A stretch of DNA of 64,000 bases from positions 1-64,000 of the forward strand of contig JANWLE010000100.1 in NCBI GenBank assembly GCA_025451035.1, in the 5' to 3' direction. Both the position numbers and the translations under genes were made by a program. How positions within the stretch are numbered: position 1 is the first letter of the stretch; each line of letters begins with the position of its first letter. The notes beneath the pieces are model-generated. The model did no database searches, was not told the origin of the DNA, and worked only from the letters and a program-made list of their open reading frames with translations. The DNA comes from Solirubrobacteraceae bacterium (GTDB taxonomy: Bacteria > Actinomycetota > Thermoleophilia > Solirubrobacterales > Solirubrobacteraceae). This document shows positions 18,787 to 37,587 of the stretch, one piece after another.

Positions 18787-19502
18787 ACTGTCTGAAAGAT
18801 CTCTGTACCTGGGTGGGGTCTGTGTCCGAACAGAAATACCTGCTCCGCCATGCGACAGTAAGTACCGGACGCATTATCGCGCGGGCGATCTACATCGCAG
18901 GATGTCTCGCGATAGGCGTCTTTGTGACATCACTCTTGATCGGGACTGCTCAGACGGGCTTGCCCGGCTCAACCCGGCTCTTCTTTGGACTTCACGTTGG
19001 ACTCTTTGTCGCCGTCTGTTTGGTGATGTTTGTCACCGCTAAGCGTGCGGCCCGCGGGATATCGGTCGAGGTCTCAGAGCTAGGAGCAGTCCTGTACGAC
19101 GCGAAGTGGCCGAGGGTGAGAATCGATTCGCGGGCACAGTGGCACGCTGAAATATTCGATCGCCACGTAGTTCTGGTGCTGGAAGTCCTTGGGGAATCGA
19201 TTGCGCGCATGAAGACCCCAAGCGAGCACTTCAACCCTACGGCTTTGCTAGAGGAGCTGACCGAGCTATCGCGTGAACTGGATCCCGGCGAAAGACCGAT
19301 AGTCAAAGTTGCAATCGCCTATCTAGCTCGGTTGTTGGATGAGCCAGCCGGGATCTTCCTCGCTCACGGCGTGGGGCATGAGGTGTTCACGCCCGATCTA
19401 TTTGCAGCGATGGCCGAGGGCCGCGTTCGGCCATGGCCAACGGCCGCGTCCGTCGATGATCGGCGTCCAGTGAGGGCCCCTAACTGCCAACAGCGGGTGT
19501 AG
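18783..19502 (+). CDS. Two-TM membrane protein of unknown function
   Basis: Hydrophobic helices IIARAIYIAGCLAIGVFVTSLLIG and LFFGLHVGLFVAVCLVMFV; ORFan-like. Confidence 0.65.
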   Translation: MNCLKDLCTWVGSVSEQKYLLRHATVSTGRIIARAIYIAGCLAIGVFVTSLLIGTAQTGLPGSTRLFFGLHVGLFVAVCLVMFVTAKRAARGISVEVSELGAVLYDAKWPRVRIDSRAQWHAEIFDRHVVLVLEVLGESIARMKTPSEHFNPTALLEELTELSRELDPGERPIVKVAIAYLARLLDEPAGIFLAHGVGHEVFTPDLFAAMAEGRVRPWPTAASVDDRRPVRAPNCQQRV

Positions 19503-19550
19503 CTCCAGGTAACACACCGTCTTCCTGGAGATGTCGCAAATGAAGTGGTG

Positions 19551-19622
19551 CTAGCTCACTGGGCTGGCGCTTGAAGTGCCGAGGCCCGTCTACGCACAGT
19601 GCGTAGACGGGCCTCTCGTCGT
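19551..19622 (+). repeat. Right copy of the REP-like inverted repeat with hairpin GGCCCGTCTACGCA-CAG-TGCGTAGACGGGCC
   Basis: Perfect stem read directly; inverted relative to 18603-18671. Confidence 0.7.
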
Positions 19623-19633
19623 TAATCACAAAT

Positions 19634-19648
19634 CCAGCATGACGCTGG
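19634..19648 (+). promoter_or_regulatory. CCAGC-ATGAC-GCTGG hairpin immediately 5' of the RBS of the 19661 CDS
   Basis: Read directly; one of five such hairpins in the region. Confidence 0.6.
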
Positions 19649-19660
19649 AAGGAGGCAAAC

Positions 19661-20323
19661 ATGAACGCTCTCAATGAGTGGAGAACCCGTCTGACGCAAT
19701 ACATCCTCAGCTGCGTGAACTCTGCGCGGCTGCACCGGCTCGCGCCACCCGCCGCCTCAGGCTTTGCCTTGGTCGCCGTTATGGGTGCGAGCTCATCACT
19801 TCTGATGTTCGGGATGTTCCTTCACACCCTCTCACTGCTGTATCTACCGGGTGGCGGATTCCGCGTGGTCCTCTGCCTCGCGTGCCTTGCGCTCGCTGCA
19901 TGCAGCGTCATCGAGTTCGGCTTCTTTCTCTTCGGCTGTGCCAAGGTGCTTGAGCGCCTGTTTCCGATCAGGCTGCTTCCGATGAAGATGACCGGGAAGC
20001 AAGACATGCCGGCTAGCGTGAGCGCGTGCATCGAAGTCGCCGACGAGCAGCGGCAGATTGCCTTTGGCTACATACAGAAGGCGATCGAGGAACTGGTGAC
20101 GGACGGCGGCGAGCTCAAGCTCGCAGCCATCGGCGCTCGGACGGAACGGCTGCGTCGTTCGATCGAGTCAGATGATTGGGTCGTCGACGCCATGACCAAC
20201 ATGATCTATGCCTTGGCCTCAGGGCCCGCGGCATATCTGTTCGACCAAGCAATCGCCGAGGGGGAGTGTCCAGTCTGCTTGCTCTCGAGGCTGCTGCTCG
20301 GCGTGGCGCGGGGCGATGGTTGA
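19661..20323 (+). CDS. Two-TM membrane protein of unknown function
   Basis: Two hydrophobic helices, then a soluble domain; RBS GGAAGGAGG. Confidence 0.65.
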   Translation: MNALNEWRTRLTQYILSCVNSARLHRLAPPAASGFALVAVMGASSSLLMFGMFLHTLSLLYLPGGGFRVVLCLACLALAACSVIEFGFFLFGCAKVLERLFPIRLLPMKMTGKQDMPASVSACIEVADEQRQIAFGYIQKAIEELVTDGGELKLAAIGARTERLRRSIESDDWVVDAMTNMIYALASGPAAYLFDQAIAEGECPVCLLSRLLLGVARGDG

Positions 20324-20507
20324 GAAAGCCCGGCTCTAGCGCTGGGTGTCGTTAGGAGCGTGATCCGCGGGTTGCCTAAGCCAGGCTTCCTCTAATCACT
20401 GCGGCTGCCCGCTCGACCTCCTAAGAACCAGGTCCGAGCAGCCAGGGGCACGTTTCAGTGCTCCCATCATCCGCGATCAAGACATGACTTTGATCGCGCC
20501 TTGAGAG

Positions 20508-20548
20508 GCCCGTCACTCGTCACGGCGAGGACGGGCCTCTCGTCGTTC
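20508..20548 (+). repeat. Third REP-like hairpin GAGAGGCCCGTC...GACGGGCCTCTC-TCGTCGTT
   Basis: Shares AGGCCCGTC...GACGGGCCTCTCGTCGTT with 19590-19622. Confidence 0.65.
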
Positions 20549-20592
20549 ACCGATCAATCACTAACAGCGCAAGCTGGAAAGGAACCTACGCA

Positions 20593-20886
20593 ATGCAGCG
20601 TGGAAGCTCACCTCAACAACAAAGCAAAAGACACACAAAGCAACAACGCCGCCATACGTGCCCGCGATGCGGAAGGACGTGCGCACGGCTAGTTTGGGCC
20701 TACACCTCCGAAACGGAGGTGTCTCGCACCAAGACACAGGTGTGCGGCAAGTGCAAGAAGGAACTCGATGATGCGCAGGCCTCACGCGAAGCGGCCGTAA
20801 GGCTGCGGTGTGACGCTGTTGGCGCGCAGAGAGACCGGGATAGGGCTCGCCGAACACGCCAGGCGCTCCTACACGGCAGGTGGTAG
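20593..20886 (+). CDS. Small zinc-ribbon-like protein
   Basis: HTCPRCGRTC...TQVCGKCKKEL (CxxC...CxxC). Confidence 0.55.
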   Translation: MQRGSSPQQQSKRHTKQQRRHTCPRCGRTCARLVWAYTSETEVSRTKTQVCGKCKKELDDAQASREAAVRLRCDAVGAQRDRDRARRTRQALLHGRW

Positions 20887-21186
20887 ATCCCCTTGTCCGG
20901 AACCCAGCGTGCGGGGTCTACCTCCACGTTGGGTGCGGACAAGGACCAGTAGTCACCCAGACGTCGCGTGCCAGTTGGCCCAAGCCGCCACGGCAACCGC
21001 CGAGCTGATCCAGCGCGATTGGCCTAGCGGGGGAATCTAGCGCCGGAGTCTGCGCGCACTCGCCTCTCACCAGAGTGAGGCCTGCCTTTGCCAGAAGGAG
21101 GCGCGGGGGGTCGCTCCTCGCTGCGCGTCGTCCGTCACACGACGGTTTAGCCAAACCTGGTTTGAAAGAGAAAGGAGAACCCAGAA

Positions 21187-21879
21187 ATGACAACCACAAG
21201 CAAAGGTGCGCGTGGGAAGCCCATCCGGGCCACAAAAGGAGAAGAGGAGCTGATCGCGGCGGTCCTCGGTCATTTCGATATGACCCGGGACTGGATCAGG
21301 GAGTTGTTCGAGCCCTGCGTCCGGCACGTGGTGCGCGCCATGCGACTGGTCGGTCGAGGAGCCACCATCAAAAGCATCATCGTCCACATGACGCCCGATG
21401 CCCTCAGCGAACTCGTCGAGAAGTTGCGCACGGAGGAGGACCTCGGCGCTCAGAAGCGGGCGTTCGGGGTCCACCTAGAACGGTACCTGCAACACCTTGG
21501 CGAGCGTGAGAGGGAACTGCTCTCCACGGCCAAGGAGCTCTCGGATCTACCCGACCGAGATGACGTGGATCTCCTCAGGGGCCTTCTTGCGCAGTTCCGC
21601 CTCGACGGGGAGTGGGAGCGCGAGCTGTTCGGTCGTCATCTCCGGCGGGTCCTGTGTGCCCTGCGTCTCACTGGCGAAGAATGCACCATCGCTAACGCGA
21701 TCGCCAGCATGTCGCCCGTTTCGCTGCTGGCGCTCGCCGGGAGGATCATCGAGGACGGCTCCCACACGGAGAAGGGCCGGGAGCTGACCAGCTACGTCAG
21801 ATCTCTGACGATTGCCGAACGCAGGTGCGTGGAAAACCCAGAGGGCCTGCACGTGGGCGCACTGCAAGGCGCTTCGTAG
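21187..21879 (+). CDS. ORFan-like protein with two internally duplicated domains
   Basis: AVLGHFDMTRDWIRELFEPCVRHVVRAMRLVGRGATIKSIIVHMTPDALSEL aligns with GLLAQFRLDGEWERELFGRHLRRVLCALRLTGEECTIANAIASMSPVSLLAL. Confidence 0.7.
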   Translation: MTTTSKGARGKPIRATKGEEELIAAVLGHFDMTRDWIRELFEPCVRHVVRAMRLVGRGATIKSIIVHMTPDALSELVEKLRTEEDLGAQKRAFGVHLERYLQHLGERERELLSTAKELSDLPDRDDVDLLRGLLAQFRLDGEWERELFGRHLRRVLCALRLTGEECTIANAIASMSPVSLLALAGRIIEDGSHTEKGRELTSYVRSLTIAERRCVENPEGLHVGALQGAS

Positions 21880-21989
21880 GCTGAGCAGACCGCGGTCTAG
21901 CCGCCCAGACTTTCACAGCGGCAATTGGTCCCTAGGTCGTGCGGCCCTGGCGCGTAGACGCTCCTGTATTTGAGCAAGAAAAAGCGCCG

Positions 21990-22404
21990 TCACGTGTCGC
22001 GCGTCCGCAGTTACCCCCCGTTTGTGGGGGTTGAATCTCGCAGTTACCCGGCATCGCCGGATAGCCGTAACTGCATGGTCGTGCGTGCATAGTCTGGCTC
22101 TGCAGAGCCAGACTGCGCACGTCGTCCGTGCCCGGTGACGGCTGCAACACGGGCGTTAGCAAAAACGCGGGTTTGCCGGATGGCAAGGCCGCGCTAATTT
22201 ACAGGCTTCTTTTTCCTCTTCGCCTCGCGCAGTTCCTCACAGCATCAATCCAGTCACAGCTCTCTCTTGTCAGAGAGTGCTCGAGCAAGGCCCTCAGAAA
22301 GCACTCGACGCCTGTCGTCGCGATCGGCCTCTAAGTCTCAACTGGCCCTGTCATGCGGGCAGTGGAAAAGAAGAACGGAAGAGCAATCATGGAGGGAGTA
22401 CTAG
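21990..22404 (+). other. Structured leader B, paralogous to leader A
   Basis: CGCAGTTACCC at 22006 and 22039; stem GCAGTTAC 22040-22047 / GTAACTGC 22067-22074; 24-nt palindrome AGTCTGGCTCTGCAGAGCCAGACT 22091-22114; TTCTTTTTCCTCTTCGCCTCGCGC from 22207. Confidence 0.7.
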
Positions 22405-23298
22405 ATGAATGCTGTAGGTGACGGACCAACTGGTAGTGACTCAACCGAGGGATCTCGGCGGATCGTGGAGGACTGCGTTCTCAGGTTGACGCGTAGTCTG
22501 CTCGCGACCCTCATGAGGCTGTTCACGGAATTCGCCACGACCGACGGGCAGGATCCTGGGACGGCCGACAGAGCAAGACTTATCGCACGGGCGGCGGAGA
22601 TCATCAGCGATGCCTTCGCCGGCTGGATTCTCGAGCCCACACAGGACCATTCAGATGAAGGCGAAGACGTGGACCCAGAGGATGAGGTCCTCGACGGCTT
22701 TGGATACGAACCCAAAGACACCGACCCAAGGGACGGTGCTCAAGAGGGGGGACAGGCGCCGTTCCTCGATGAGGACGACTCACTGGTGTGGGCGGTCGTC
22801 GAGCCGCAAGAAGGGGAAATCATTCTTGCCGCCCTCGAACTCGTGCTCGTCGAACTCTTGCAGCGCGACCGCTCGCCGAACAGAGAGTCCATGGCCGCCG
22901 TCTGTGCGGCTACCTCGCAGCTCGCCGAGGCGGGTGATCTACTCGGAAGGGCAGCAAGCGACCAAGAGACCGTCGTCGTCCAATGGCTGATCCGTAGGAC
23001 GATGGATCTGATCAGAAGTTGCGGCGCGGCCGCGCCTCTTCAGACCTTGGTGTCGGCTGTGGTCGAGCCCGATCCCTTGCCGGGTGGGCTGGGTATCGCG
23101 GACCCGCTGATGCTCGTCCTGAGTCGCGCTGACCGAAGGAACCTCAGCACTGAGATCAGGCAGATGATCCACATGCCGGCGATCAAGAGACACAATGCGG
23201 TGCCGATCCTCCAAGGACTCCTAGCTGTCCTCGCCGAGCAGGATCTCGAGGTCCTGCTCGCACAGCGGCTACAGGCGCAGGCCTCTAGCCGTCTGTGA
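22405..23298 (+). CDS. Hypothetical protein downstream of leader B
   Basis: Long open frame with an acidic central segment DEGEDVDPEDEVLDGF; no family recognised. Confidence 0.65.
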   Translation: MNAVGDGPTGSDSTEGSRRIVEDCVLRLTRSLLATLMRLFTEFATTDGQDPGTADRARLIARAAEIISDAFAGWILEPTQDHSDEGEDVDPEDEVLDGFGYEPKDTDPRDGAQEGGQAPFLDEDDSLVWAVVEPQEGEIILAALELVLVELLQRDRSPNRESMAAVCAATSQLAEAGDLLGRAASDQETVVVQWLIRRTMDLIRSCGAAAPLQTLVSAVVEPDPLPGGLGIADPLMLVLSRADRRNLSTEIRQMIHMPAIKRHNAVPILQGLLAVLAEQDLEVLLAQRLQAQASSRL

Positions 23299-23432
23299 AG
23301 GACTACTTCCGCTGGTCGCCAACGCACCTAGGTGCCCGGCCCCAGCCCGAAGCACGACCGCATCCAAGCTGACCCGCTATTGCAGAGTCGGCTAGGGCGA
23401 GCGACAGCTGTAGCGGCGCTCGCCTTATCGCA

Positions 23433-23520
23433 AGCGACCTGGGTGGTCTCTGAAAGAGACCACCCAGGTCGCTGCGTGTGTAGGCGTCCACGACAGCGCG
23501 TGAACGTGCCTACACACGCA
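23433..23520 (+). other. Two adjacent long hairpins upstream of the second tandem-TetR gene
   Basis: Perfect 18-bp stem AGCGACCTGGGTGGTCTC-TGAAA-GAGACCACCCAGGTCGCT (23433-23473), then GCGTGTGTAGGC/GCCTACACACGC (23474-23519). Confidence 0.75.
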
Positions 23521-23571
23521 CATCACTGTTGCGCCCCAAGCGGCATCCAATACGCACAAGGAGGTGTAGAT

Positions 23572-24918
23572 ATGCGCCCGGTACACAACTCAACGGGAAG
23601 AGGAGAGGACAGTCAAGAGGAGCAACCAGAGGTCATGTTTGAGCGACTCCCGCATGGGCCTCACAAAATGAGTCGCGAAGAAGTACACCACAACCAATGG
23701 CTTCGAACGGTCGAAGGGATGATCGCGGCGGTGGCGCGAAACGGGTACTACGCGACTAGCGTCAAGCAGGTCATCGCCCTTGCCGGAGTCTCGCGACGGT
23801 CGTTCTACGAGCTGTTCACAAGCAAGGAAGACTGTTTCGCGCAGGCCTGCCAGATGATCTGCGACCGTCTGGCAGAGGGAGTCGTCAATGCCGCCGACCG
23901 GCGAGATGTAACCACTGATATCCGCATGCGCGAGGTCATCGCGTTCCTGGTAGCCGAGACTGAAGTTGATGCCGACAGCATGCAGCTGTTGCTGTTCGAC
24001 GCACCCAACATCGGCCCAGGCGGTCGCGCGCAACTGGACAACATGCTGAGGGTGCTCGAGCGGGTGATCGCGCGCGAGTTCGCGGCGCCCGGCGAGACTG
24101 CCGCACGCCCATCGCCTCTGGTGCGAGCGGTGGTTGGCGGTCTTGCCAGAAGCATGCTCGTGCTCGTGCGCGACGGGTCCACATGGCGCGAGGACTCTCT
24201 GATCGAGGGTCTGTGCCGTTGGGTGATGCTGCTCGAGCGTCCTGTTGCGCAGCGTCTGTCCGTTATGGCGATTACCCGTCAAAAACAGGAAGCCATGCAA
24301 GTCGCGGTGACCGCGGCGGAGCAAACCGATCAGCAACGTCTGCAGTTGGCAATGCTGGAGCTGCTGAACCGCTGCGAGTACGCCGAAGCGATCGCTCCGG
24401 CGCGCGTCGCGGATTTGGCTGGGCTCTCAATCAAACGCTACTTTGAGATATTCAAAGACGGCCACGATTGCCTGCTCGCCGCGTATGACTCGGTCAGGCG
24501 AGATTTGCTCACGATCGCAGCTCGTCCTCGAATCGAGGGAAGCGACTGGGCCACCTCGGTGATCCTGATGGTACGCGGGCTGATGGGTCACCTCGCGGAT
24601 AACCCACTGCATGCTCGAGCCTTCACATGCCTCATGTTCGAGCCCGAGTCTGAGCTCGTCGATCTCAGCGCTCGCCTCTTCCACGAGTTCGTGGCGCTGA
24701 TGATCGTTGGCGCGCCCGGTAGGCCAGATCCGGTGCTGGCCAGCGAATTGATCAAGGGCGCCATCTGGCACCTCCTCAGCACGTTTGTGGAATGTCGCAA
24801 ACCACAGATCCTGCCGCTTGTCGCCGACCACGTTGCCTACCTGGTGCTCGCGCTGTACCTCGGAGGAGAGACGGCGATGGAGGTAATTGAAGGAAACTCA
24901 TCGAGCTTCGAGCGATGA
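23572..24918 (+). CDS. Tandem TetR-family regulator, paralog of 15738-17093
   Basis: PHGPHKMSREEVHHNQWLRTVEGMIAAVARNGYYATSVKQVIALAGVSRRSFYELFTSKEDCF aligns with the first copy; second HTH-like segment RVADLAGLSIKRYFEIFKDGHDCLLAAYD. Confidence 0.8.
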   Translation: MRPVHNSTGRGEDSQEEQPEVMFERLPHGPHKMSREEVHHNQWLRTVEGMIAAVARNGYYATSVKQVIALAGVSRRSFYELFTSKEDCFAQACQMICDRLAEGVVNAADRRDVTTDIRMREVIAFLVAETEVDADSMQLLLFDAPNIGPGGRAQLDNMLRVLERVIAREFAAPGETAARPSPLVRAVVGGLARSMLVLVRDGSTWREDSLIEGLCRWVMLLERPVAQRLSVMAITRQKQEAMQVAVTAAEQTDQQRLQLAMLELLNRCEYAEAIAPARVADLAGLSIKRYFEIFKDGHDCLLAAYDSVRRDLLTIAARPRIEGSDWATSVILMVRGLMGHLADNPLHARAFTCLMFEPESELVDLSARLFHEFVALMIVGAPGRPDPVLASELIKGAIWHLLSTFVECRKPQILPLVADHVAYLVLALYLGGETAMEVIEGNSSSFER

Positions 24919-25129
24919 ATCTGATGTCGTATTAACGAGTTCACGCTCATCCTGTTCGTGCCGCTCATCGATCCAGGAACAGCGACGGTCCTACGACAGT
25001 AGGGCCAAGCGGTCTGGGTCAGCGAGCGCCGCGTATTTCACCTAGGCACGGCGAGGTGGTCGCTGCTTAGACGTCGCCTAACCACATGCGCTCGGACGCG
25101 AATCCGGTCGCCATAAGAAAGGAAGTCAG

Positions 25130-25453
25130 ATGATCGTCATTTCGATCATGGCAGTACTGCTTGTCGTTCTTGCCGTCTGTGCCCTCCGTGTGCGCCTGAC
25201 CACCGACGACGCCGTAGTCAGGACAAGCGAGCGGCCCGGTGTGCTGGTGGCGGCGTTCGGATCAAAAGCGCCTGGGGTTGCGCTCGACGGTTCGCTCGGC
25301 AGCGGGAAGGCAGATCCGCGAGCCAAGGCTCGACGCCGAGCGGTCAGAAGAGCCCGCCGAGTCAACCACAGAGGGAAGGACAGCCCGCGCAAGCGTCGGC
25401 GCAGGCGCTCTACGGGGTCCAAGCACAAGCACGGGCGCCCGCGTGGACGCTAG
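25130..25453 (+). CDS. Small protein with N-terminal TM and highly basic tail
   Basis: MIVISIMAVLLVVLAVCALRV then RRRAVRRARRVNHRGKDSPRKRRRRR. Confidence 0.5.
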   Translation: MIVISIMAVLLVVLAVCALRVRLTTDDAVVRTSERPGVLVAAFGSKAPGVALDGSLGSGKADPRAKARRRAVRRARRVNHRGKDSPRKRRRRRSTGSKHKHGRPRGR

Positions 25454-25544
25454 CCGGCGCGAGCGTGGTCGCCGAGCCCGGATGTCGACGCCAAGTAACA
25501 GAGCGATTGTGCCCGTCAAGGGGCACGGAAAGGAGGGTGAATAA

Positions 25545-25742
25545 ATGAAGAAGCACCTTGACCGACGCTGTCAAATCGAGGAGGCGCTGCGACCTATCGA
25601 CGTCACCGCCTACATGCGGGCGGTGAACAGCTCGCCGTCAGTCGTGTATGGGCTCGGCCGAGAGCACGGTCTGGTCAGCGACGGCGAGTACGCCCAGGCC
25701 AGGCGCGCATACGGCATCGACTGGAATCGCGCCGGCGACTAG
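25545..25742 (+). CDS. Small hypothetical protein
   Basis: Open frame with upstream AAAGGAGG. Confidence 0.5.
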   Translation: MKKHLDRRCQIEEALRPIDVTAYMRAVNSSPSVVYGLGREHGLVSDGEYAQARRAYGIDWNRAGD

Positions 25743-25835
25743 CCCTTCTGGGTGGGCGTGAAGACCTTGAGTCAGACCAGAGAAGTAACCCTAACTCATA
25801 CAAGCAAAGGCCTCGTGCCTAGAAAGGAGCGCAGA

Positions 25836-26459
25836 GTGTCACGAGTTATCTGTGGTTATCCAACCAACCACTTCGTGATTGGAGGACGGATCACCACTCT
25901 CTCAGAGATACAGGAGCGGGACGACGAGATCTTCCGCAGGGTGAAACTCCGCTGCGACTATGGAGGGTCAAGAGATAGCTTTCCGACCTTCCGGGTGTTC
26001 GGAGAGATAGCCGAGCGGCTCGCCCGCATGCCGCAAGCACATGCGGTATGCCTGGGTGGCCACGTGCACACATACAGGACGAAGGGCGTCAACGGCAAAG
26101 AGCGCGCGACTTGGAGTCTGGACGTCGACGCAGTCCTGACCGACGGCGCGTCTAGCACGCAGAAGGGCGCTGATACCGACAGCAACACGGTGTTGCTGTC
26201 GGGAAAGCCGCTTGGGTCTGTGAGAAGGCGAACGCGTGCCGGCGGGGACCCCAGGGTCATCGTGGAGGTGTGCTGCGTGGGTGATGATGCCCACATCGAT
26301 ACGCCGAAGGTGACGGGACTCGGCGACAGGGCCGAGGAACTGCTCAGGCTCTCAGAGGCTGATGACATGAAGATAGTCGCCACTCTCGTCACCTATCCGA
26401 TTCGCGGCAAGAAGTTTATGCCGATGAGCATCCGGATGCGCGGCGTGCCGCTGGACTGA
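25836..26459 (+). CDS. SSB-like (OB-fold) protein, divergent
   Basis: GTG start after AAAGGAGC; FRVFGEIAERLARMPQAHAVCLGGHVHTYRTKGVNGKERATWSLDVDAV resembles SSB strands 3-5. Confidence 0.45.
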   Translation: MSRVICGYPTNHFVIGGRITTLSEIQERDDEIFRRVKLRCDYGGSRDSFPTFRVFGEIAERLARMPQAHAVCLGGHVHTYRTKGVNGKERATWSLDVDAVLTDGASSTQKGADTDSNTVLLSGKPLGSVRRRTRAGGDPRVIVEVCCVGDDAHIDTPKVTGLGDRAEELLRLSEADDMKIVATLVTYPIRGKKFMPMSIRMRGVPLD

Positions 26460-26493
26460 CTTTAGTCCCACACGGTCCTCGCTCGTCCCCGTG

Positions 26494-26517
26494 CCTCGCC
26501 GCAAGGCGAGGTTTTTT
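26494..26517 (+). terminator. Rho-independent terminator CCTCGCC-GCAA-GGCGAGG-T6
   Basis: Stem, GCAA tetraloop and T-tract read directly. Confidence 0.9.
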
Positions 26518-26572
26518 GTTGCGGTTAGCGCGCTTTGGGCTAACCAGACGGGGGCGAGCGACAGGCGGCTAC

Positions 26573-26621
26573 GCCAATCGAGTACCGGGCGACCGACATG
26601 GTCGCCGGGTAGTCGCTTGGC
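26573..26621 (+). other. Conserved structured leader motif, copy 1: CGAGTACCGGGCGACC-GACAT-GGTCGCCGGGTAGTCG
   Basis: Stem with two symmetric G-G mismatches; nearly identical to 27316-27361. Confidence 0.7.
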
Positions 26622-26688
26622 CGAGTGGCCGAGGACTACCGGGTGGGCAGCCGCCTTACAAGCTGCCCACCCACCTGCGTAACCAAAC

Positions 26689-26703
26689 CCAGCGATTAGC
26701 TGG
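26689..26703 (+). promoter_or_regulatory. CCAGC-GATTA-GCTGG hairpin immediately 5' of the ssb RBS
   Basis: Read directly; see finding on the five-gene set. Confidence 0.6.
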
Positions 26704-26721
26704 AGAACAGGAGAAGTAACT

Positions 26722-27189
26722 ATGGCACACGTAAACATCAACCGTGTCGTGATGACCGCAAACCTCACCGCCGATGCGGAGCTCCGGAGCTTCCCGTCTG
26801 GGGCGCGCCTGGTGACCTTCCGGATCGCAAACAACGGACTCAGAGGCGAAGCCAACTTCTTCGACGTCGAGTTCTGGGGAGAGCGGGCCGAGAAGGTGGT
26901 CGAATACCTCACCAAGGGCCGCGCGATCGCGATCGACGGTCGTCTTCAGTCCAAAGAATGGGAGGCCGGCGACGGCACCAAGCGCTATGGGACGTGCATC
27001 GTCGCGGACAGCGTCGAGTTCCTCAGTGGCCCTCGCGAGGAGGCGAGCACCTCAAAGACGGCTCAGCGCGGGGGCAGAAGCGGCACCCGCTCGACGGGAC
27101 GCACGGCTGGCAAGGGAGGCTCAACTGCGAAGGGCCGCAAGGGCTCCACGGGGCGCACCACGCGCACCCGCGCTCGCAGCAAGGCCTAG
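26722..27189 (+). CDS. ssb: Single-stranded DNA-binding protein with basic Ser/Thr/Gly/Arg/Lys-rich tail
   Basis: INRVVMTANLTADAELR...FFDVEFWGERAEKVVEYLTKGRAIAIDGRLQSKEWE; tail lacks the acidic DDDIPF-type tip. Confidence 0.88.
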   Translation: MAHVNINRVVMTANLTADAELRSFPSGARLVTFRIANNGLRGEANFFDVEFWGERAEKVVEYLTKGRAIAIDGRLQSKEWEAGDGTKRYGTCIVADSVEFLSGPREEASTSKTAQRGGRSGTRSTGRTAGKGGSTAKGRKGSTGRTTRTRARSKA

Positions 27190-27238
27190 TCGGCTACAAG
27201 CACCCGGGTCGTAGTAGGCCTGGACTCTGACCCCACGG

Positions 27239-27261
27239 CCCCGCCATGTTGCGGGGTTTTT
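27239..27261 (+). terminator. Rho-independent terminator CCCCGC-CATGTT-GCGGGG-T5
   Basis: Read directly. Confidence 0.88.
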
Positions 27262-27315
27262 GTTGGCCCGGATCGTGAGCGCAAGCTCGCGATTCGGCCG
27301 ACGGGGGTCGCTCAG

Positions 27316-27361
27316 TCAGCCGAGTACCGGGCGACCTGAGGGTCCCCGGGTAGTCGGCTGA
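27316..27361 (+). other. Conserved structured leader motif, copy 2: CGAGTACCGGGCGACC-TGAG-GGTCCCCGGGTAGTCG
   Basis: 16/16 and 15/16 identity with copy 1; outer stem TCAGC/GCTGA differs from copy 1 but still pairs. Confidence 0.7.
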
Positions 27362-27434
27362 GTCCATCGACTCATCTGACGCAGAGCGTCGGCGAGCGTG
27401 CGCGCGAACCCTCTCTCGAAAAGCGCAACCAACA

Positions 27435-27447
27435 CCAGCTCAGCTGG
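27435..27447 (+). promoter_or_regulatory. CCAGC-TCA-GCTGG hairpin immediately 5' of the RBS of the 27465 CDS
   Basis: Read directly. Confidence 0.6.
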
Positions 27448-27464
27448 AGGAAGGAAGTAACTAC

Positions 27465-28022
27465 ATGACTACTACACAAGCGCCTCAGGCGCTCATCAGC
27501 GGCACGGTTCTGAGCGTTGGGCTTGAGCCCGACGACGTGCGCGGAAGACCGGTAAATGTCGTGATGCTCAGGCAGAGCAGCCCTGGGCGTGGGCGAACCG
27601 TCACGGTTCCGCTCACCTCCACCAACTCGAGCCTCCTCAAGGGGCTTAAGCCGAATGACCGCATTCTGGCGGGCTATCACATGGGCGCAGGCGACAGTTC
27701 ACACACCTCGCTCGAGATCGACTCCCTGGAGAAGGTCCCAGCCGGGGAGAAGATGGAGCTGGTGAATGCCGGCACGATCGAAGGCGAACGGAACTCCTGC
27801 GTGTACACGCCCTTCGCTAACAAACGCGGGGGGATGTGTGATCTAACGCTAGTCGTCGAAGGCGAGGACCGCTTCCTGAAGGTGTACAGCAAGCTCGTCG
27901 ACGAGGCGGAGGAGACCGACGACGGAGACACGCTGAAGGTGCTGTTCCGTGTCACCAGCCGTCCCGACGGCGATGGCGTCGTGACAACTGCGGTAGCGGT
28001 GGCCATTGAGGTGGTCTCCTAG
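27465..28022 (+). CDS. Hypothetical beta-rich protein of unknown function
   Basis: Start after GGAGGAAGG; protein-like composition; no family recognised. Confidence 0.6.
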   Translation: MTTTQAPQALISGTVLSVGLEPDDVRGRPVNVVMLRQSSPGRGRTVTVPLTSTNSSLLKGLKPNDRILAGYHMGAGDSSHTSLEIDSLEKVPAGEKMELVNAGTIEGERNSCVYTPFANKRGGMCDLTLVVEGEDRFLKVYSKLVDEAEETDDGDTLKVLFRVTSRPDGDGVVTTAVAVAIEVVS

Positions 28023-28254
28023 CTACGACAGAAGTGACCTAACTGTCACGAAAAAGCCGATGGCTGCGGCAGTTGGTCACGCTAGCTACCCACGCTGAGC
28101 ATATCTCGGCGTGGGTCTCCCTCGATGCCACCGCGCTTAGCGGAGGCAACCTAACAGTAACAACAAGTCACAAACTAGTGACAAGTTGCTGTTGGGCGCG
28201 AGGGCCTATTAACCACGGCCGTGAAGATAGCGGCCCTTCATCAGGAGGAAGAAG

Positions 28255-28725
28255 TTGTTCAACTACGGCATAGGTTCCCTACTCACCATGATGTGGGACT
28301 ACTCGATCGCCGGCATAGTCGGTTTCGGACTCGCGTGCGTGACGCTTCTGGTCTTGAGTCATACGCGGGCGACCTGGACCTGGGGTATCTTGGTACCCGT
28401 GGTCGCGGTTACGTGGCTCCCATCGGTGAACAGCCCAGGGGTGTTCCTGTTCGGAGCTCTCGTGGCGACGGTCGTTACGTTGCTCGGGATGGTGATCATG
28501 ACGCTCAACGGCAAAGCGACCCACGGAGACCGTGGCCTGCGTGCTGCCTGCAAAAACAAGCGGTTCAGGATCGCCGCGAGCCTGTATGTCGGCTACTGCA
28601 CGCTATGTGCCTTCGTCGACGGTCCGCCGGTGTCGTTCGTCGCTGCGTTGTCTGTGCTCGCCGTGATGTGGTGGAACGAGGGCCTGAAGACCTTCCTTTA
28701 CGCCCTGGTCAGCCAGGGCGACTAA
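28255..28725 (+). CDS. Multi-TM membrane protein of unknown function
   Basis: TTG start after AGGAGGAAG; about four to five hydrophobic helices. Confidence 0.6.
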   Translation: MFNYGIGSLLTMMWDYSIAGIVGFGLACVTLLVLSHTRATWTWGILVPVVAVTWLPSVNSPGVFLFGALVATVVTLLGMVIMTLNGKATHGDRGLRAACKNKRFRIAASLYVGYCTLCAFVDGPPVSFVAALSVLAVMWWNEGLKTFLYALVSQGD

Positions 28726-28986
28726 GGCATCACGGCGTCGCAGTGTGACGTCGTTCAGGCGCGGCTAGCCGAACGCTAGTCGCCATGACGGGGTGGTCTC
28801 AGTGACCAGACCGCCCTAGGACGCAGTGCGTATTCACAGCTCACTGCGCGAGCGGTCACTGATGTCAGGCATCTAGCCCGGCCGTCAGCGGCCTGAAGTG
28901 CCACTCGGGTCTGGCGATCCGAGTGCCAGCAAGCGGCGGGCGATACCCGCTGAGCATTCCATTAACGAAAGGCAGGACGTATAACC

Positions 28987-29547
28987 ATGGCAAGTAACCA
29001 AGAAATCGCTGGCAGGTTTGTTTCAACGGGGGGCCTCACGATCCCGGATACCGCACTGAGCGTGACGGGGGAGGAGATCCCTTTCAGCCAGCTCTTCCTA
29101 GAGTCGCTGAGCGCGACCAGGGAGTTGCACGAAGGTGAAGAGGCCGTCATGGCTGACGGTGGGCGCCGGTCGAAGAAGCGGTTCGCAGGTCTCCGTGAGG
29201 AGATCGAGAGCCTCGACGAGCCCATCAACCTGGGGGTCGAGGACGTCACTCTGACGTGCGAGATCCAGGTCACCGGAAGCAAAGAGATGCTGACGGTGAA
29301 GGTCCGCGGCTTCGCCGCACTGCTGATCCACCGCCGCGCGGTGGAGGGGCAGAGGGTCGAGCTGACCGGGACGACGAAGGGCGGGGTCCTAGAGGCCTCG
29401 ACAATCGTCCTTTTGCGTGTCGAAGGGTCCACGGCGGGACAGACCGGAAAGCCCGCGACTGTCTCTGACGCCAACGGCAGCGAGCAGGTTCCCGAGCAGG
29501 ACGACGCCGGCCTCTCCGAAGAGGCGGCTGCCGGCTCGGGGGAGTAG
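28987..29547 (+). CDS. Hypothetical protein with acidic C-terminus
   Basis: ATG after GAAAGGCAGG; tail GSEQVPEQDDAGLSEEAAAGSGE. Confidence 0.55.
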   Translation: MASNQEIAGRFVSTGGLTIPDTALSVTGEEIPFSQLFLESLSATRELHEGEEAVMADGGRRSKKRFAGLREEIESLDEPINLGVEDVTLTCEIQVTGSKEMLTVKVRGFAALLIHRRAVEGQRVELTGTTKGGVLEASTIVLLRVEGSTAGQTGKPATVSDANGSEQVPEQDDAGLSEEAAAGSGE

Positions 29548-29707
29548 GTCGGAAAGCCAAAGGGCTTTCCCGCAGCACCGAGGCACGACGGGTCTCGGGG
29601 ATGCGCCTGACGGCGTATCCCCGATGACGCCGTTTCAAGCATGGGGACCGAGTGGATTCCCCACAACCCGCGGCCAACCTGTCGACAAAACACCGTTGGT
29701 CGCCTGA

Positions 29708-29721
29708 GGAACAGGAGTTCC
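29708..29721 (+). promoter_or_regulatory. RBS-containing hairpin GGAAC-AGGA-GTTCC 5' of the 29726 CDS
   Basis: The AGGAG Shine-Dalgarno lies in the loop and 3' stem, 4 nt before the ATG. Confidence 0.45.
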
Positions 29722-29725
29722 AAAC

Positions 29726-30706
29726 ATGAAACGCGATAAGGACACACAGGTACGCACGTGCCTCAGTCCGGGCGCGATCGTTGCAATCATCGTCCGGCTT
29801 GGACGAGTGACCCCGACGATCTTCGCAGAGTGCCTGCGAATTCGTGACAAGGTCACAATTCTGAATGTGATCGCCCGTCTGGGCTACCTGACCGAGCGAC
29901 ACATCGAGGCGTGCACCGGCATCACCGAGGGTCTCTCGAAGTTGTTGCAGGAACTCTGCGACACTGATCACCTGATAAGGGTGCCGGTGGAGGGATTCCC
30001 AGTCGTGTACTGGATCAGGCCTCGTGGTCTCTCCGAAGTGGAGGACTTCGAGATACCGGGCATCGGCACGATCTCTCCGGCGCAGATGGGGTCAAGTCAG
30101 AGGACTACCTTCTGCTCTTGCCGGGTCAGTGACCCGATGGTGATGCCGCACGCACTCGCAGTGGCGGACATAGCTGTGGCGTTCTACCGCGCCTACAGTG
30201 GCGTCGTTCTCGGCGAGCGCATGCTGCGTCTGGCCGAGAAGCTCACCGGAAAGCAGATAGGCACTGCGTCGATCACACGGTCGCGTAGGCGCTGCCCAGA
30301 CGCAGTAGTGATCGCGCCAACTGGTGAAGTGACGGCCGTCGAGGTCGAATGTTCGCCGCACGCCGACACGGAAGTGATCTCTGCTGCGAAGGCATACATC
30401 CGGGCGGATCACATCGCCAGGGTGATCTACATCGCACACGGCAAGACGGTGGAGCAGGTGGTAAAGCGCTGCCTGAAGACCGTCGAGGCAGGGCAGAAGC
30501 TCGTTCTCGTTGCCCGCAACGGCAAGCGGCTGCCCCGACAGCAGGACATCCGTCCGGCTGGTGCGCGATTCAGGCATCGCCGGCCCGACCAGAGCCGCGC
30601 TCAGGTAGTGGCGCGCGGCAACGCAATCCACGGCGCTCGGCCGCATAACAGCGGACCCAACCGGACGAGCCGGCGCAGCGTCGAGCGGGAGCACGTGTGC
30701 TCCTGA
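29726..30706 (+). CDS. Replication-relaxation-like protein (wHTH + PD-(D/E)xK-like core)
   Basis: N-terminal HTH-like repeats; CPDAVVIAPTGEVTAVEVECS...AAKAYI resembles the core of replication-relaxation/MobC-like families. Confidence 0.6.
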   Translation: MKRDKDTQVRTCLSPGAIVAIIVRLGRVTPTIFAECLRIRDKVTILNVIARLGYLTERHIEACTGITEGLSKLLQELCDTDHLIRVPVEGFPVVYWIRPRGLSEVEDFEIPGIGTISPAQMGSSQRTTFCSCRVSDPMVMPHALAVADIAVAFYRAYSGVVLGERMLRLAEKLTGKQIGTASITRSRRRCPDAVVIAPTGEVTAVEVECSPHADTEVISAAKAYIRADHIARVIYIAHGKTVEQVVKRCLKTVEAGQKLVLVARNGKRLPRQQDIRPAGARFRHRRPDQSRAQVVARGNAIHGARPHNSGPNRTSRRSVEREHVCS

Positions 30707-30759
30707 TCGGCGCCCGCAAGTGATTGCCGCAGTCGGCCGGCTCTGCCAGTAGTACCGGA

Positions 30760-30848
30760 TGTGCCTCGGGGATTCGATCCCCGAGGCACGCCGGCTGGCG
30801 GTTGCAGTGTCAGCCACTCACTGTCAGTGAGCGGCTGACCGTGCAACC
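30760..30848 (+). other. Two strong hairpins between the 29726 and 30874 CDSs
   Basis: GTGCCTCGGGGAT-TCG-ATCCCCGAGGCAC, then GGTTGCA-gt-GTCAGCC-a-CTCAC-TGTCA-GTGAG-c-GGCTGAC-cg-TGCAACC. Confidence 0.75.
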
Positions 30849-30873
30849 AGATCAAAGACATGGAGGTATAACA

Positions 30874-31191
30874 GTGGCATCTAGTACAGGTACAGCGCAG
30901 AACACAGGCGAGCTCACCGGATCTGTCGTGCAGATCGGCAAGCTCGACATGGCCAGCGAGCGCATCGAGTTCGTTCTCGAGACGGATGCTGGATCACGGC
31001 AGGCGGTCTTGGCGGATGGCGATCTCGCGTACGCCGTATATGGGGTCCTGGGGCAGGAGTCGGCTGTCAAGGTACAGCTGGCCGACCAGGGCGATAGCGG
31101 TGAGGGCCAGGTTCTCGCCAAGGCGATCTCCTACGTCGCCGAGGGCAGGCTCGTGGATCTCCTTGATCCCGACGCGACGCGGGAGAACTAG
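30874..31191 (+). CDS. Small hypothetical protein
   Basis: GTG start after GGAGG. Confidence 0.55.
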   Translation: MASSTGTAQNTGELTGSVVQIGKLDMASERIEFVLETDAGSRQAVLADGDLAYAVYGVLGQESAVKVQLADQGDSGEGQVLAKAISYVAEGRLVDLLDPDATREN

Positions 31192-31308
31192 GGTGGACGG
31201 GCTTACCAGCCTTTCCACTAACGGTTAGTAGCTACTAGCGAAAAGGTAAAAGGCGACGGTGGCCCACGTGGTCGCCGCCGCCTTCTAACAGGATGAAAGG
31301 AGGTGGCC

Positions 31309-33576
31309 ATGTCACAGGAAAGACAATCGACCCAAGGATTGGGCGGACCCAGTGGTGACCAACAGACAGGCGATAACGACACGCTTTTCGAGATGCTGAT
31401 CAACTACGACCCGTATACCGATGACGTGGGTCCGATCCTGGATCTCCTGTTCGGTTCACGCTCAAGGGCCGCTGAAGTAAACGAGACATCGATCGGCATA
31501 GAGTGGCGCGTGCTCAAGCAAATCGCCAATTTCTGTGCCACGCGAGCAGATCTGCTGACTCTGTTCGGGCCGCTCACGGAGCGGGAGCTCGCTGCCGGCG
31601 CCACCGGTTTGTGTGACTTTCCGCCAATGTCAGAGGCCGAGCTCGACGCCCGCCTTGCCCAGTACTTGGCTGAAGGTCTGTGCAGAGTCGAGGAGGGAGA
31701 GGCTGATGAACACGACCTCTACATCCCGACTAGTCTGGGAATGAGGCATGCCGGCTTCATCGGCTGGAACGCCGGTATCAGCGAACGCCATGGTGGATGG
31801 CTGTTGGAACGTGGTGGCCTCCGGGGCCGGATGCTCGCCTCGGTCGCGGCGGCAGTGAGCCGCAACCTCCAGCTGGATCGGCGCTTTGAGAACTTCAGCG
31901 TATGGAGTTTGTGGGAGATGCGCCGTGCCGCACGTGGCCGCCGCCGACCCCGGGAACGCGGCAGGCGCCGCTACCTGGCGGAGGTTGCCGTCCCGCGGCG
32001 CGGGGAGCGTGTGGGACATCGTCACTATCCCGCAGCGCTCATCTGCCCAAAGCCGGGAGTCGATGCTTCGATAACGCTGATCGAGATCTTCGACGGCGTG
32101 TTCGATGACGAGGAAATGGAGATCATATGTCGCGGATGGACGGTCCGCCGCGATGTCCACCGCGTCAACTGTTACGTCACCGAGGAGGTGCTTCCGCGTA
32201 TCTGGGAGATCCTGCGGCGCCTGAGCGGGAGCGATAGGGTCGCGATCTACAAGCTCCCGCCGACGCCGCGCGCAACGGCCCTCGTGGGTCTTCAGCAGGA
32301 GCAGCCGCCGATGGCGCTCACGCCCAGATCCGAGCTAAGGCCGGATGATGAAGCTACACAGCAGCAGATCCTCGAGTGTATTGGCGAGGCTGGCAGCGCC
32401 AGCGTGAGCGCACTCGCGGAGTACCTGAATCTAGACGAAGCGTATGTGCAGGTTCTCGTCGAAATCGCAGAGCAGAGCGGACTGATCAGTCGTTCTAACC
32501 ATGTATGTGACGGAGCTCACCTGTTCTGGCTGACAAAGGAGGGCGTCGACAGAGTTAACCTCACCTTGCCGGCGCAGCCCTCGAGCTTCAGGCAGGCACG
32601 ATTCGACAATGACTGTCTGAGGATCGCGGCCCGTGTGCGGAGGCGTTTCCCGCGCCACGATGTGATGAACGCTCGTCAGCTGAGGCTCGTGGGCGAGTCG
32701 ATGCTGACCATCGGGGGCCCCGAGCTGGGCTTGATTCCAGGCCTTGTTGCCAGGCCGCGCACGCCAAAGGGGTCCTTGGCCGCGGTCATGGTTGCCCGTG
32801 AGCTCGGGACGATCACTGAACTCGAGCAGATGGTGAGCGCGTGCGCTGAGGATCAGCAGATGTCTCTGATCTTGATCTATGCAGCGCAAGCCTTCATCGG
32901 GCAGTTGAAGGGTCTCGTCCGGGCTCACGACGTGGGTGGGCGAATCGAGGTCAAACGGCTGCCCACGGCAGCGCGAGCGGCGAAGAAGAAGGATGAGCAG
33001 ACGCAGCACAGCGCTGCGACGGCTCTAGCACCGTGGTCGCGTCCAAGGCCAGCCAACAAGCAAACAAAGAAGGAGGTGGAGGCACCGAAGCCGCGGCGGT
33101 GCGATCAGCATGTGCCGCAGCTGCCTGGCCTCAAGCCCATAGGTGACGCGGCTTGGGAGGCCTTCGAGGACGCGCTGGTCCGGCGAGTGGGGCCGCCCAG
33201 CGGGAACAGTGTGAGCGTACGCCTGATCATCAATGTCGCGATCTGGTTGATTGAACACAACAGGTCTGTGACATATGTGAACACACATAGCCGCACCTGC
33301 CTGGTGAGCGGAACAGCTTTCACCTGCTGGCTGGCACGGCTTCACTATGCCGGCCTGTGGGGGGTCCTGCAATCGGTCATAGAGCGCTATGAACCGGAGC
33401 GGGGCCGGCTCAGGTGGGAGCACATTGATCCCGCGCGTTACAAACAGCACCTGTTCGGGCGCTGGGGCCGCTCAGCCCCTCGAGTGTCAGATAAGGCGTT
33501 CGAGGATGTCTGGGAGGAAGTAGAAGCGCTGAGAGAGGAGGACAAGCGCTTCCTATCTCAAGAAGAGGAGAACTGA
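31309..33576 (+). CDS. Large tandem wHTH/replication-relaxation-like protein with degenerate core motifs
   Basis: Two wHTH-rich halves; degenerate cores around YPAALICPKPGVDASITLIEIF and GLVARPRTPKGSLAAVMVARE. Confidence 0.5.
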   Translation: MSQERQSTQGLGGPSGDQQTGDNDTLFEMLINYDPYTDDVGPILDLLFGSRSRAAEVNETSIGIEWRVLKQIANFCATRADLLTLFGPLTERELAAGATGLCDFPPMSEAELDARLAQYLAEGLCRVEEGEADEHDLYIPTSLGMRHAGFIGWNAGISERHGGWLLERGGLRGRMLASVAAAVSRNLQLDRRFENFSVWSLWEMRRAARGRRRPRERGRRRYLAEVAVPRRGERVGHRHYPAALICPKPGVDASITLIEIFDGVFDDEEMEIICRGWTVRRDVHRVNCYVTEEVLPRIWEILRRLSGSDRVAIYKLPPTPRATALVGLQQEQPPMALTPRSELRPDDEATQQQILECIGEAGSASVSALAEYLNLDEAYVQVLVEIAEQSGLISRSNHVCDGAHLFWLTKEGVDRVNLTLPAQPSSFRQARFDNDCLRIAARVRRRFPRHDVMNARQLRLVGESMLTIGGPELGLIPGLVARPRTPKGSLAAVMVARELGTITELEQMVSACAEDQQMSLILIYAAQAFIGQLKGLVRAHDVGGRIEVKRLPTAARAAKKKDEQTQHSAATALAPWSRPRPANKQTKKEVEAPKPRRCDQHVPQLPGLKPIGDAAWEAFEDALVRRVGPPSGNSVSVRLIINVAIWLIEHNRSVTYVNTHSRTCLVSGTAFTCWLARLHYAGLWGVLQSVIERYEPERGRLRWEHIDPARYKQHLFGRWGRSAPRVSDKAFEDVWEEVEALREEDKRFLSQEEEN

Positions 33577-33602
33577 TTCCGGTCTAACGGGAATCAGTTC
33601 TC
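33563..33602 (+). terminator. Hairpin overlapping the 31309 CDS stop: GGAGAACTGATTCC-GGTCTAAC-GGGAATCAGTTCTCC
   Basis: 14-bp stem; no long T-tract, so terminator is inferred. Confidence 0.6.
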
Positions 33603-33642
33603 CTCGCGTGGTCACACAATAATTAGAGAAAGGAGGCGGGAC

Positions 33643-35463
33643 GTGCCCGCGAAGAGTAAGACAGCAAAGGCAAAGCTGCAGGAGAGAGAGGCGCAACTGA
33701 ACAGAGATGTGCTGAGTCTCCTTCTCCTGCTGGCGCCCGACGCGAGAATGACCAAGGAGCGGCTGTACGAGTTCTGTGTCAGAAGTCGCAGCAGGGTCGA
33801 CCAAGAGCTGAAATGGGCCACAAACGAAAACCTGCTGGTTAGGAGAAGCTTCGAGCTCACGCGCAAGGGCCGCATGCACGTGATCCTGAGTTTCATCGCC
33901 ATTCACGGCGGTGCGACGGTCGACAACCTGGAGCGGCGATTCAAGCTCAAACGCATCGCTCTCGCCCAGATATGCAACGAGATGCTGCAAGCGGATCTGG
34001 TGCGAATAGCGGGATCGCTCAACTTCGAGGCGCCGCTGTATCTCGCCACCAAGAAGGGCCTGGCGCTCGTTGGGCAGGACAAGCTGCACGTCGTTCGGCT
34101 GTCGGCTCGCGAGGAGGGCCATCTGCGGGCGTGCATCGAGAGGGCTATAGACCTCGAAGAGGAGTACGCGCCGCGGGGCGAGCACGGCTGTCGCTGGGAA
34201 GTGTGGAGCGAGCGCAGGATCGCCCGCCACAATCGCGGCAAGACCGAGGAAAAGCGTTTCGCCAGCCCAGCCTATTACGAGGGTGACGTACGCTTTTACA
34301 AGCGCCCGGACCTGCTCCTGGTGAGAAGGTTCCGCGACTCAGACGAGCTCGAGGTGAGGGCCGTCGAGGTGGAGTTGACGAACAAGGCCGAGACTGCGCT
34401 GGATGCGATCCTGTGGGCGTACTTCACCTGTCCCAGCGTGGACTCCCTCGACTACTACGTCTCCAGCTTGGTCAAGCAGGACATCGAGCGGGCGCACAGG
34501 CGCTTGGAGCGGAGGATCGAGCTGGAAGTAGCCGAAGGGAACCTGCCTGCCGGCACCAGCAGCAAAATGAGCGTGATCCCCTTGCAGCCCTGGGTCGTTC
34601 CGGCGGAGCGGCGCGCCCCGTTCTACGAGCCGGGAGAGCTCGCAGGTAGCCAAGCGCTCTTCCGGAGGATCTCGATGACGAGTGGGTGGCGGAGGGAGTT
34701 GCGTCTCAGCACGCTCAAGGTGGTCGAGTGGGTGACGCTGAATGGCGTGGTAGCGCCCGACGCCGTCGAGGTGTGGCTGGCAGGGCGCGACAAGCGCCCT
34801 GCGCATGAGCTGCTCGCGCTCGCGCATGGGGCGGGGTGGCTGTATTACTCAGACATCCTGCGGGGTGAGGGCCCGATCTTCTTCGCCACAAAAGCTGGGC
34901 GCGGCGAGGTTGGGCTTGATTTGCCCGAGTTCGAAATCGACTACAGCAAGGCATCTCACTATCTAACTACCACCGAGTTGTGTTGTTATTCGCGCGTGGC
35001 GGCTCACCTGGCCCGAGAGTTGCCAGGTATGCAGATCAAGAGCAGGTGGGAGCTGCGGGTCGATCAGCAGTTCAGCGGAGGCGCGCAAATCGAGGTCGCC
35101 GGGCCCGGCGAAGGATTGGGTTACTACCGACGGCCTCACCTTGTCGCGATCCCGCGTCTGGGCTCAGATGAACTTCCTACCGCGGTGGTGGTCTTCGCAA
35201 GCCACATGCAGGCCAGCAGGGTCGCGCCGATCATAAAGGCGTGGCTTGAGTCCGAGGAGTTTGGACACCTCTACCTGTACGTAGGTGACGCGACTGTGCT
35301 GGAGGCGGTGACCAAGGCCGTGGAGAAGCTGGGGGCAGGCTGCGAAGTCACGGTTCGCGAGCTCCCGCTCTCCCCCAGGGCACACGAGCCTATCGAGGAT
35401 GACGGGGCTCTGAGGGGCTGCAGTTTGCCTTCACAGAGCCGAACTGCATGGGTTAACACGTAA
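33643..35463 (+). CDS. Replication-relaxation-like protein, tandem cores (one canonical, one degenerate)
   Basis: YKRPDLLLVRRF...LEVRAVEVELTNKAETALDAILWAYF in the first half; YRRPHLVAIPRL...PTAVVVFASHMQASRVAPIIKAW in the second. Confidence 0.6.
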   Translation: MPAKSKTAKAKLQEREAQLNRDVLSLLLLLAPDARMTKERLYEFCVRSRSRVDQELKWATNENLLVRRSFELTRKGRMHVILSFIAIHGGATVDNLERRFKLKRIALAQICNEMLQADLVRIAGSLNFEAPLYLATKKGLALVGQDKLHVVRLSAREEGHLRACIERAIDLEEEYAPRGEHGCRWEVWSERRIARHNRGKTEEKRFASPAYYEGDVRFYKRPDLLLVRRFRDSDELEVRAVEVELTNKAETALDAILWAYFTCPSVDSLDYYVSSLVKQDIERAHRRLERRIELEVAEGNLPAGTSSKMSVIPLQPWVVPAERRAPFYEPGELAGSQALFRRISMTSGWRRELRLSTLKVVEWVTLNGVVAPDAVEVWLAGRDKRPAHELLALAHGAGWLYYSDILRGEGPIFFATKAGRGEVGLDLPEFEIDYSKASHYLTTTELCCYSRVAAHLARELPGMQIKSRWELRVDQQFSGGAQIEVAGPGEGLGYYRRPHLVAIPRLGSDELPTAVVVFASHMQASRVAPIIKAWLESEEFGHLYLYVGDATVLEAVTKAVEKLGAGCEVTVRELPLSPRAHEPIEDDGALRGCSLPSQSRTAWVNT

Positions 35464-35621
35464 TGGTGGTAGCCGTTAGTCAGCCCCACGGGTGAGTGCG
35501 TCCGCCGGACGTGCTTACCTGCGGGCACCCTCAGAAGTGTTGCGATCACGCTCGCCCGGGCGATACGTCATGAGCGATTTCGCGCCCAGTTCGCACGTGC
35601 GCCAAAGCCGCTGATCGCTAG

Positions 35622-37578: not shown

Positions 37579-37587
37579 TGCGTTAAC

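Follow-up and report, generated by a model that had tools for sequence, protein, structure and literature searches.

The single-stranded DNA-binding protein gene ssb and the gene that follows it in a 64,000-nucleotide stretch from a Solirubrobacteraceae bacterium (contig JANWLE010000100.1, positions 1 to 64,000; hereafter the window) are each preceded by a copy of the same imperfect palindrome, P2. This raises the question of whether the two copies belong to one control element and, if so, whether it would act as RNA, as single-stranded DNA or as duplex DNA. The analysis presented here indicates that the twin leaders probably form one RNA control element common to ssb and the gene next to it. 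The two genes are as follows:

26722–27189, plus strand: ssb, single-stranded DNA-binding protein, 155 aa (Pfam PF00436, E 3.9e-24; NCBIfam TIGR00621)
27465–28022, plus strand: orphan gene, 185 aa, no family and no relative found

For the orphan product, no Pfam, PHROG, PDB, plasmid, viral or family-level relative was obtained, and its predicted structure (pLDDT 35) is uninformative. Three ssb-type genes lie within 14 kb (26722, 39173 and about 40873), besides a chromosomal copy elsewhere in the genome.

The P2 motif

P2 is a 16 + 16-nt imperfect palindrome present once in each leader, at 26579–26615 and 27321–27356. Both copies, reported in an earlier note made from the letters of this DNA, were confirmed by pattern search. 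The pattern GTACCGGG-N-CCGGGTAG gave two matches in the window against none expected from 100 shuffles, and a genome-wide search found only these two copies in the 2.87-Mb genome of the organism.

26574–26620, plus strand: leader 1, P2 motif hairpin (z −6.7)
26579–26594 / 26600–26615, plus strand: P2 copy 1, core arms (spacer 5)
27316–27361, plus strand: leader 2, P2 motif hairpin (z −5.0)
27321–27336 / 27341–27356, plus strand: P2 copy 2, core arms (spacer 4)

The primary sequence is identical at 31 of the 32 nucleotides, each copy folds better than all of its dinucleotide shuffles (0/300 in both cases), and about 105 nt separate the motif from the start codon downstream. P2 forms a stem of 19 bp in which the mismatches are symmetric. 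That of copy 1 comprises 3 + 4 + 7 bp with two G-G mismatches, plus a 4-bp outer stem. The two symmetric G-G mismatches that had been described for both copies hold for this one, whereas in copy 2 a G to C change in the 3' arm breaks one inner C-G pair or shifts the register; the inner stem is therefore not strictly conserved. The outer stems, CCAA/TTGG in copy 1 and TCAGC/GCTGA in copy 2, do differ in sequence and still pair, as had been claimed, with two pairs compensatorily changed. As it is drawn from two paralogous sequences, this compensation is suggestive but does not amount to proof.

In leader 1, the 3' arm of P2 can alternatively pair with a downstream GACTACC, which would set P2 in competition with the next hairpin, P3. 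Since leader 2 has no equivalent partner for this arm, such a P2/P3 switch is not conserved. Neither was any conserved pairing of P2 with the Shine–Dalgarno (SD) sequence or the start found in the two leaders.

Architecture and divergence of the two leaders

The complete spacers, 26460–26721 for leader 1 and 27190–27464 for leader 2, were folded and compared with dinucleotide shuffles. Both leaders present a common order: a P0 helix enclosing T and P1, then P2, one or two variable hairpins, P5, the SD sequence and ATG. T is a GC hairpin with a U-tract, terminator-like, and is located upstream of P2 in both cases. Besides P2, the features are:

26477–26561, plus strand: leader 1, 5' domain (z −6.15, 0/300 shuffles)
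26477–26492 with 26548–26561, plus strand: leader 1, P0 helix (folding)
26493–26512, plus strand: leader 1, terminator-like hairpin T (folding)
26512–26521, plus strand: leader 1, U-tract TTTTTTGTTG (sequence)
26523–26545, plus strand: leader 1, hairpin P1 (folding)
26616–26672, plus strand: leader 1, variable hairpins P3 and P4 (z −5.2)
26616–26633, plus strand: leader 1, P3 (folding)
26641–26672, plus strand: leader 1, P4, 11 bp, perfect (folding)
26689–26703, plus strand: leader 1, P5, CCAGC/GCTGG, adjoining the SD (sequence)
27228–27310, plus strand: leader 2, 5' domain (z −5.96, 0/300 shuffles)
27228–27234 with 27304–27310, plus strand: leader 2, P0 helix (folding)
27237–27258, plus strand: leader 2, hairpin T, followed by U-tract TTTTTGTTG (folding)
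27261–27303, plus strand: leader 2, hairpin P1 (folding)
27360–27391, plus strand: leader 2, variable hairpins P3 (27360–27373) and P4 (27379–27391), weak alone (z −0.9, not significant)
27435–27447, plus strand: leader 2, P5, CCAGC/GCTGG, adjoining the SD (sequence)

Both leaders thus contain the features that had been noted before: the T-tract hairpin and another hairpin upstream of P2, and the CCAGC/GCTGG hairpin downstream of it. The series T, U-tract, GACGGGGG, P2, AACCAA, P5 and SD is collinear in order and spacing. The 5' domains have little sequence in common beyond TTTTTGTTG and GACGGGGG, yet they adopt the same P0-T-P1 fold. Outside P2, similarity between the 3' parts of the leaders far exceeds that of shuffles (z 6.9, 0/1000), that between the 5' parts from T is weak (z 3.0, 13/1000 shuffles), and alignment of the coding starts of ssb and the 27465 gene gave no similarity. 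Because of this gradient, and of the same fold being built from diverged sequence, the leaders are probably old paralogues in which P2 was held nearly constant while structure elsewhere was kept by different bases. The paralogy proposed in the earlier note is borne out, on firmer grounds than were given there, and the case it had named as its own refutation, a merely recent copied DNA repeat, is disfavoured, as structure and element order were retained despite divergence of the flanks.

For the complete spacers, the sense strand gave z values of −8.5 (leader 1) and −4.8 (leader 2). Relative to shuffles it was more stable than the antisense strand, at −7.0 and −1.7, respectively. GT and AC oppositions in the island stems (13 vs 8, p 0.38) do not favour RNA over DNA.

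P5 and the structured island

P5, as CCAGC/GCTGG or its CAGC/GCTG core, is located directly upstream of the SD of five genes (19661, about 20591, 26722, 27465 and 37626), and P2 accompanies it in two of the five. The related leaders are:

19581–19648, plus strand: leader of gene 19661, hairpin 19581–19615, CTCTCGTCGTT, P5 19634–19648
20503–20576, plus strand: paralogue of the 19581 leader, hairpin 20503–20541, CTCTCGTCGTT, P5-like CAGC/GCTG 20565–20576
37550–37604, plus strand: leader of the TraD-like gene 37626, hairpin 37550–37576, GCGTTAACGA, P5 37590–37604, with counterparts in same-genus relatives

In several same-genus relatives, the leader of the TraD-like gene shows a long hairpin, a linker similar to CTCGTTAACCACC, a short hairpin and the SD. 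An alignment of the P5 counterpart in the TraD-like leaders of seven same-genus genomes, made by hand, keeps 48 of 49 pairs, a count that takes no account of genome relatedness, with two pairs changed on both sides. Since P5 stands before five island genes and has this counterpart in relatives, it is part of a wider start-associated module, over which P2 is an extra layer on two genes.

Some minor observations belong here. The segments 19581–19623 and 20505–20547 make a second paralogous leader pair, in which a GAGGCCCGTC...GACGGGCCTC hairpin is followed by CTCTCGTCGTT and the P5 hairpin; the outer hairpin stem is kept in this pair, while the inner stem is changed yet still paired. The order hairpin, CTCGTTAACCACC, hairpin, SD is exemplified at 10200–10283 of one relative's locus. 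Matches similar to CTCGTTAACCACC elsewhere in the organism's own genome (contigs 71 and 73) were judged coincidental.

Nearly all spacers from 19.5 to 39 kb are unusually structured, with very stable hairpins. In a sliding scan, every window with z below −5 fell inside this interval and none outside. This general structure of the spacers, the P0 helix of both leaders and the three further genes with P5 go beyond what the earlier note had described. Because neighbouring spacers lacking P2 are equally structured, structure alone is not specific to the two P2 genes. Long perfect or near-perfect hairpins among the spacers of 19460–39172 occur, for example, at 23433–23473 (19 bp), 30800–30848 (with symmetric mismatches) and 38912–38942.

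The region encodes TraD-like proteins (6596–11059 and 37626) and a MobC-like replication-relaxation protein (29726). The homologues of 6596–11059 and 35756–36721 adjoin each other beside hrcA-dnaJ in same-genus relatives, while about 24 kb separate them here. A scan of 25400–31400 for promoter-like sites, restricted to a sigma-70-type consensus, returned none.

Search for relatives of P2 and known RNA families

Rfam 15, which includes a STAXI family, was searched with 26450–27480. No family reached the gathering threshold, and only sub-threshold matches appeared at E ≤ 5, the best being Magnesium-II, which covers the T hairpin of leader 2 at 21.6 against 40 bits. This agrees with the earlier note, which knew of no riboswitch class with such a signature.

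Exact P2 patterns were absent from 150 relatives and from viral contigs. Among 85,000 species genomes there were 12 exact-pattern matches, which lack the extended inner stem and look like chance. A P2 covariance model run over the order gave eight matches of 27–32 bits, nearly all inside long ORFs, and these were set aside as chance GC-rich hairpins. With a relaxed pattern, 397 genomes of the phylum produced matches at about the rate of the reversed control. The leaders of the relatives' inspected ssb homologues, either chromosomal beside rpsR/rplI or in the hrcA-adjacent cluster, are without P2. In everything searched, P2 is thus known from two copies only, and its compensatory pairs are those between these two paralogues. 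In addition, P2 half-sites in the genome gave 44 matches against 48 with the reversed control, and no half-site regulon was found; since half-sites are not enriched, a wider operator regulon is disfavoured.

Interpretation of the twin leaders

The element order, the conserved P2, the structure retained over diverged sequence elsewhere and the position of P5 beside the SD can be read from the sequence itself. That the leaders are paralogous and structured is the firmest part of this account, and they are most naturally interpreted as sense-strand RNA. The leading explanation, to which we give slightly less than an even chance, is that the P2 motifs are parts of two paralogous structured mRNA leaders exerting a common post-transcriptional control on ssb and the next gene. 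The leaders would act as RNA in the sense strand, with P2 as the recognition site of one trans-acting protein. The simplest binder would be a nucleic-acid-binding protein encoded by the element, of SSB type or another, that regulates its own synthesis by feedback, and the bound and unbound leader may differ in access to the start region or in how far the hairpins are read through. Together with the long hairpins, P5 would constitute a general island leader module, probably marking and stabilising each cistron, and P2 would add a further layer on two genes. P2 is tied to SSB by position alone; autogenous control of an SSB through leader RNA structure has a precedent in gp32 of T4 and RB69 (PMC535899). 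If this is true, the leaders would represent a repeated element controlling ssb, a gene with little-known regulation outside phages and F-type plasmids. The island, where almost every gene has a folded spacer in front of it, would then offer a compact natural set in which to test how such leaders work.

The folded spacers could also be explained by processing and stability with no dedicated regulator: one long island transcript would be cleaved downstream of a stabilising 3' hairpin and upstream of a 5' hairpin, P2 being a candidate RNase III-like double-stranded site in two duplicated spacers. Long perfect or near-perfect hairpins in nearly all spacers of the 19.5–39-kb interval, the recurrent order of hairpin, single-stranded linker, P5 and SD, and the 19-bp P2 stem with its symmetric mismatches are consistent with this. 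However, RNase III-type sites would not need 31 of 32 bases conserved while the other leader hairpins diverge, and we regard processing as a rather doubtful explanation.

Another possibility is that the hairpins form on the entering strand during conjugative transfer and work as a single-strand promoter or initiation site, comparable to Frpo/ssi on F. In this way ssb and the adjacent gene would be the first to be expressed. The leader structures fold on the other strand too. TraD-like and replication-relaxation proteins are encoded nearby, the gene classically found behind Frpo is ssb (PMC11541004), and the structured motif STAXI, found near ssb genes, has been proposed to act as single-stranded DNA (PMC2864571). 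Nevertheless, the promoter scan revealed nothing resembling −35/−10 sequences, no relaxase or oriT was identified, and no Rfam match, STAXI included, was obtained. Mobility is also only putative, as the TraD-like cluster lies beside hrcA in other same-genus genomes and in one other genus. This explanation is considered unlikely. An oriT or relaxase site proper was given low weight, with two copies and no relaxase found.

P2 might instead be a palindromic duplex DNA operator for an island regulator, such as the TetR-family protein at 23332–24918, and the near-palindrome, the conservation of sequence rather than inner pairing between copies, and the TetR-domain gene 2 kb upstream would fit. Against it, the outer arms differ yet stay complementary, the spacing of the arms is not the same in the two copies, by one base, an operator has no need of the conserved folded context, and no sites were found in the genome beyond the control rate or beside the TetR gene. 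An operator appears quite unlikely. A metabolite riboswitch with P2 in the aptamer, at which the earlier note had hinted, would suit a complex leader with a terminator-like hairpin and no known class, but it is the weakest rival and very improbable, because the terminator precedes P2 in both leaders and no expression platform (terminator or SD switch) coupled to P2 is conserved downstream in either, the alternative P2/P3 pairing being confined to leader 1. Moreover, no homologues were found upstream of metabolic genes, and among the genomes searched the motif is restricted to one.

Beyond post-transcriptional control by the twin leaders, a broader proposal sees in them a cis-acting element of a new class, active as folded mRNA or, during transfer, as folded single-stranded DNA. 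It would link production of an ssb and of a partner protein to single-strand status in a lineage that appears actinobacterial, and would form a second layer on the start-associated hairpin module of many island genes. This is distinctly doubtful.

Comparison with known systems

In PyrR-type leaders, a conserved RNA hairpin is repeated in successive leaders of a cluster and co-regulates its genes, with the binding loop preceding the antiterminator and terminator. The twin leaders share the repetition of one conserved hairpin along a gene cluster but differ in that the terminator precedes P2.

By analogy, the closest parallel is the SAS/ESAS system of cluster K mycobacteriophages, where SAS is a start-associated element and ESAS an upstream imperfect inverted repeat on a subset of genes, with 17-bp arms and a spacer of mostly 4–13 bp (Pope et al. 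2011, PMC3203893). Its function was still unverified in 2025 (PMC12699233). As in that system, a short element stands beside the SD of several genes, all in one orientation, and an imperfect inverted repeat whose short spacer varies in length (arms of 16 bp and spacers of 4–5 in P2) is found on a subset of them. Unlike in the phages, P2 lies about 105 nt upstream instead of immediately beside the start element and is surrounded by a larger folded domain, and the sequences and host lineage differ. The SAS consensus GGGATAGGAGCCC is absent next to the starts, where the leaders read GGAGAACAGGAGAAGTAACT and GGAGGAAGGAAGTAACTAC before the ATGs. Since the sequence differs and this consensus is absent, P2 could at most work like ESAS and is not a member. 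If the likeness is true, the leaders would be a bacterial parallel to this still unexplained system.

The gene 32 operator of T4 and RB69 resembles the present leaders as a folded leader upstream of a single-stranded-DNA-binding protein gene, in both cases with less structure close to the SD (PMC535899). It is, however, a pseudoknot with UUAAA repeats adjacent to the start, whereas P2 is a plain imperfect hairpin, a putative binding site also present on a second gene. STAXI is likewise a repeated structured motif near ssb and other DNA-handling genes, possibly acting as single-stranded DNA (PMC2864571), but it consists of tandem pseudoknots and had no match in the window at the Rfam gathering score. 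Frpo/ssi shares a hairpin-forming region directly upstream of ssb in elements with transfer-like genes (PMC11541004); it differs from the leaders, in which no −10/−35-like sequence was found and transfer is putative.

Other features of the region

Compared with same-genus relatives, about 24 kb (11100–35750) is inserted within the TraD-like/ssb cluster beside hrcA. In the 1487-aa product of the gene at 6596–11059, a single chain combines a TraD-like ATPase stretch with a replication-relaxation domain at the C-terminus. An integron attC site, suggested by ACCTAAC...GTTGGGC in the spacer 28023–28254, was rejected, as it is not repeated in other spacers. A palindrome, CCGAG.CCCCTTAAGGGG..CTCGG at 35622–35650, is kept in sequence and place in three genomes, upstream of the 35756 homologue. 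Finally, an ordinary known c-di-AMP riboswitch (RF00379, 84.5 bits) is located at 13841–13976.
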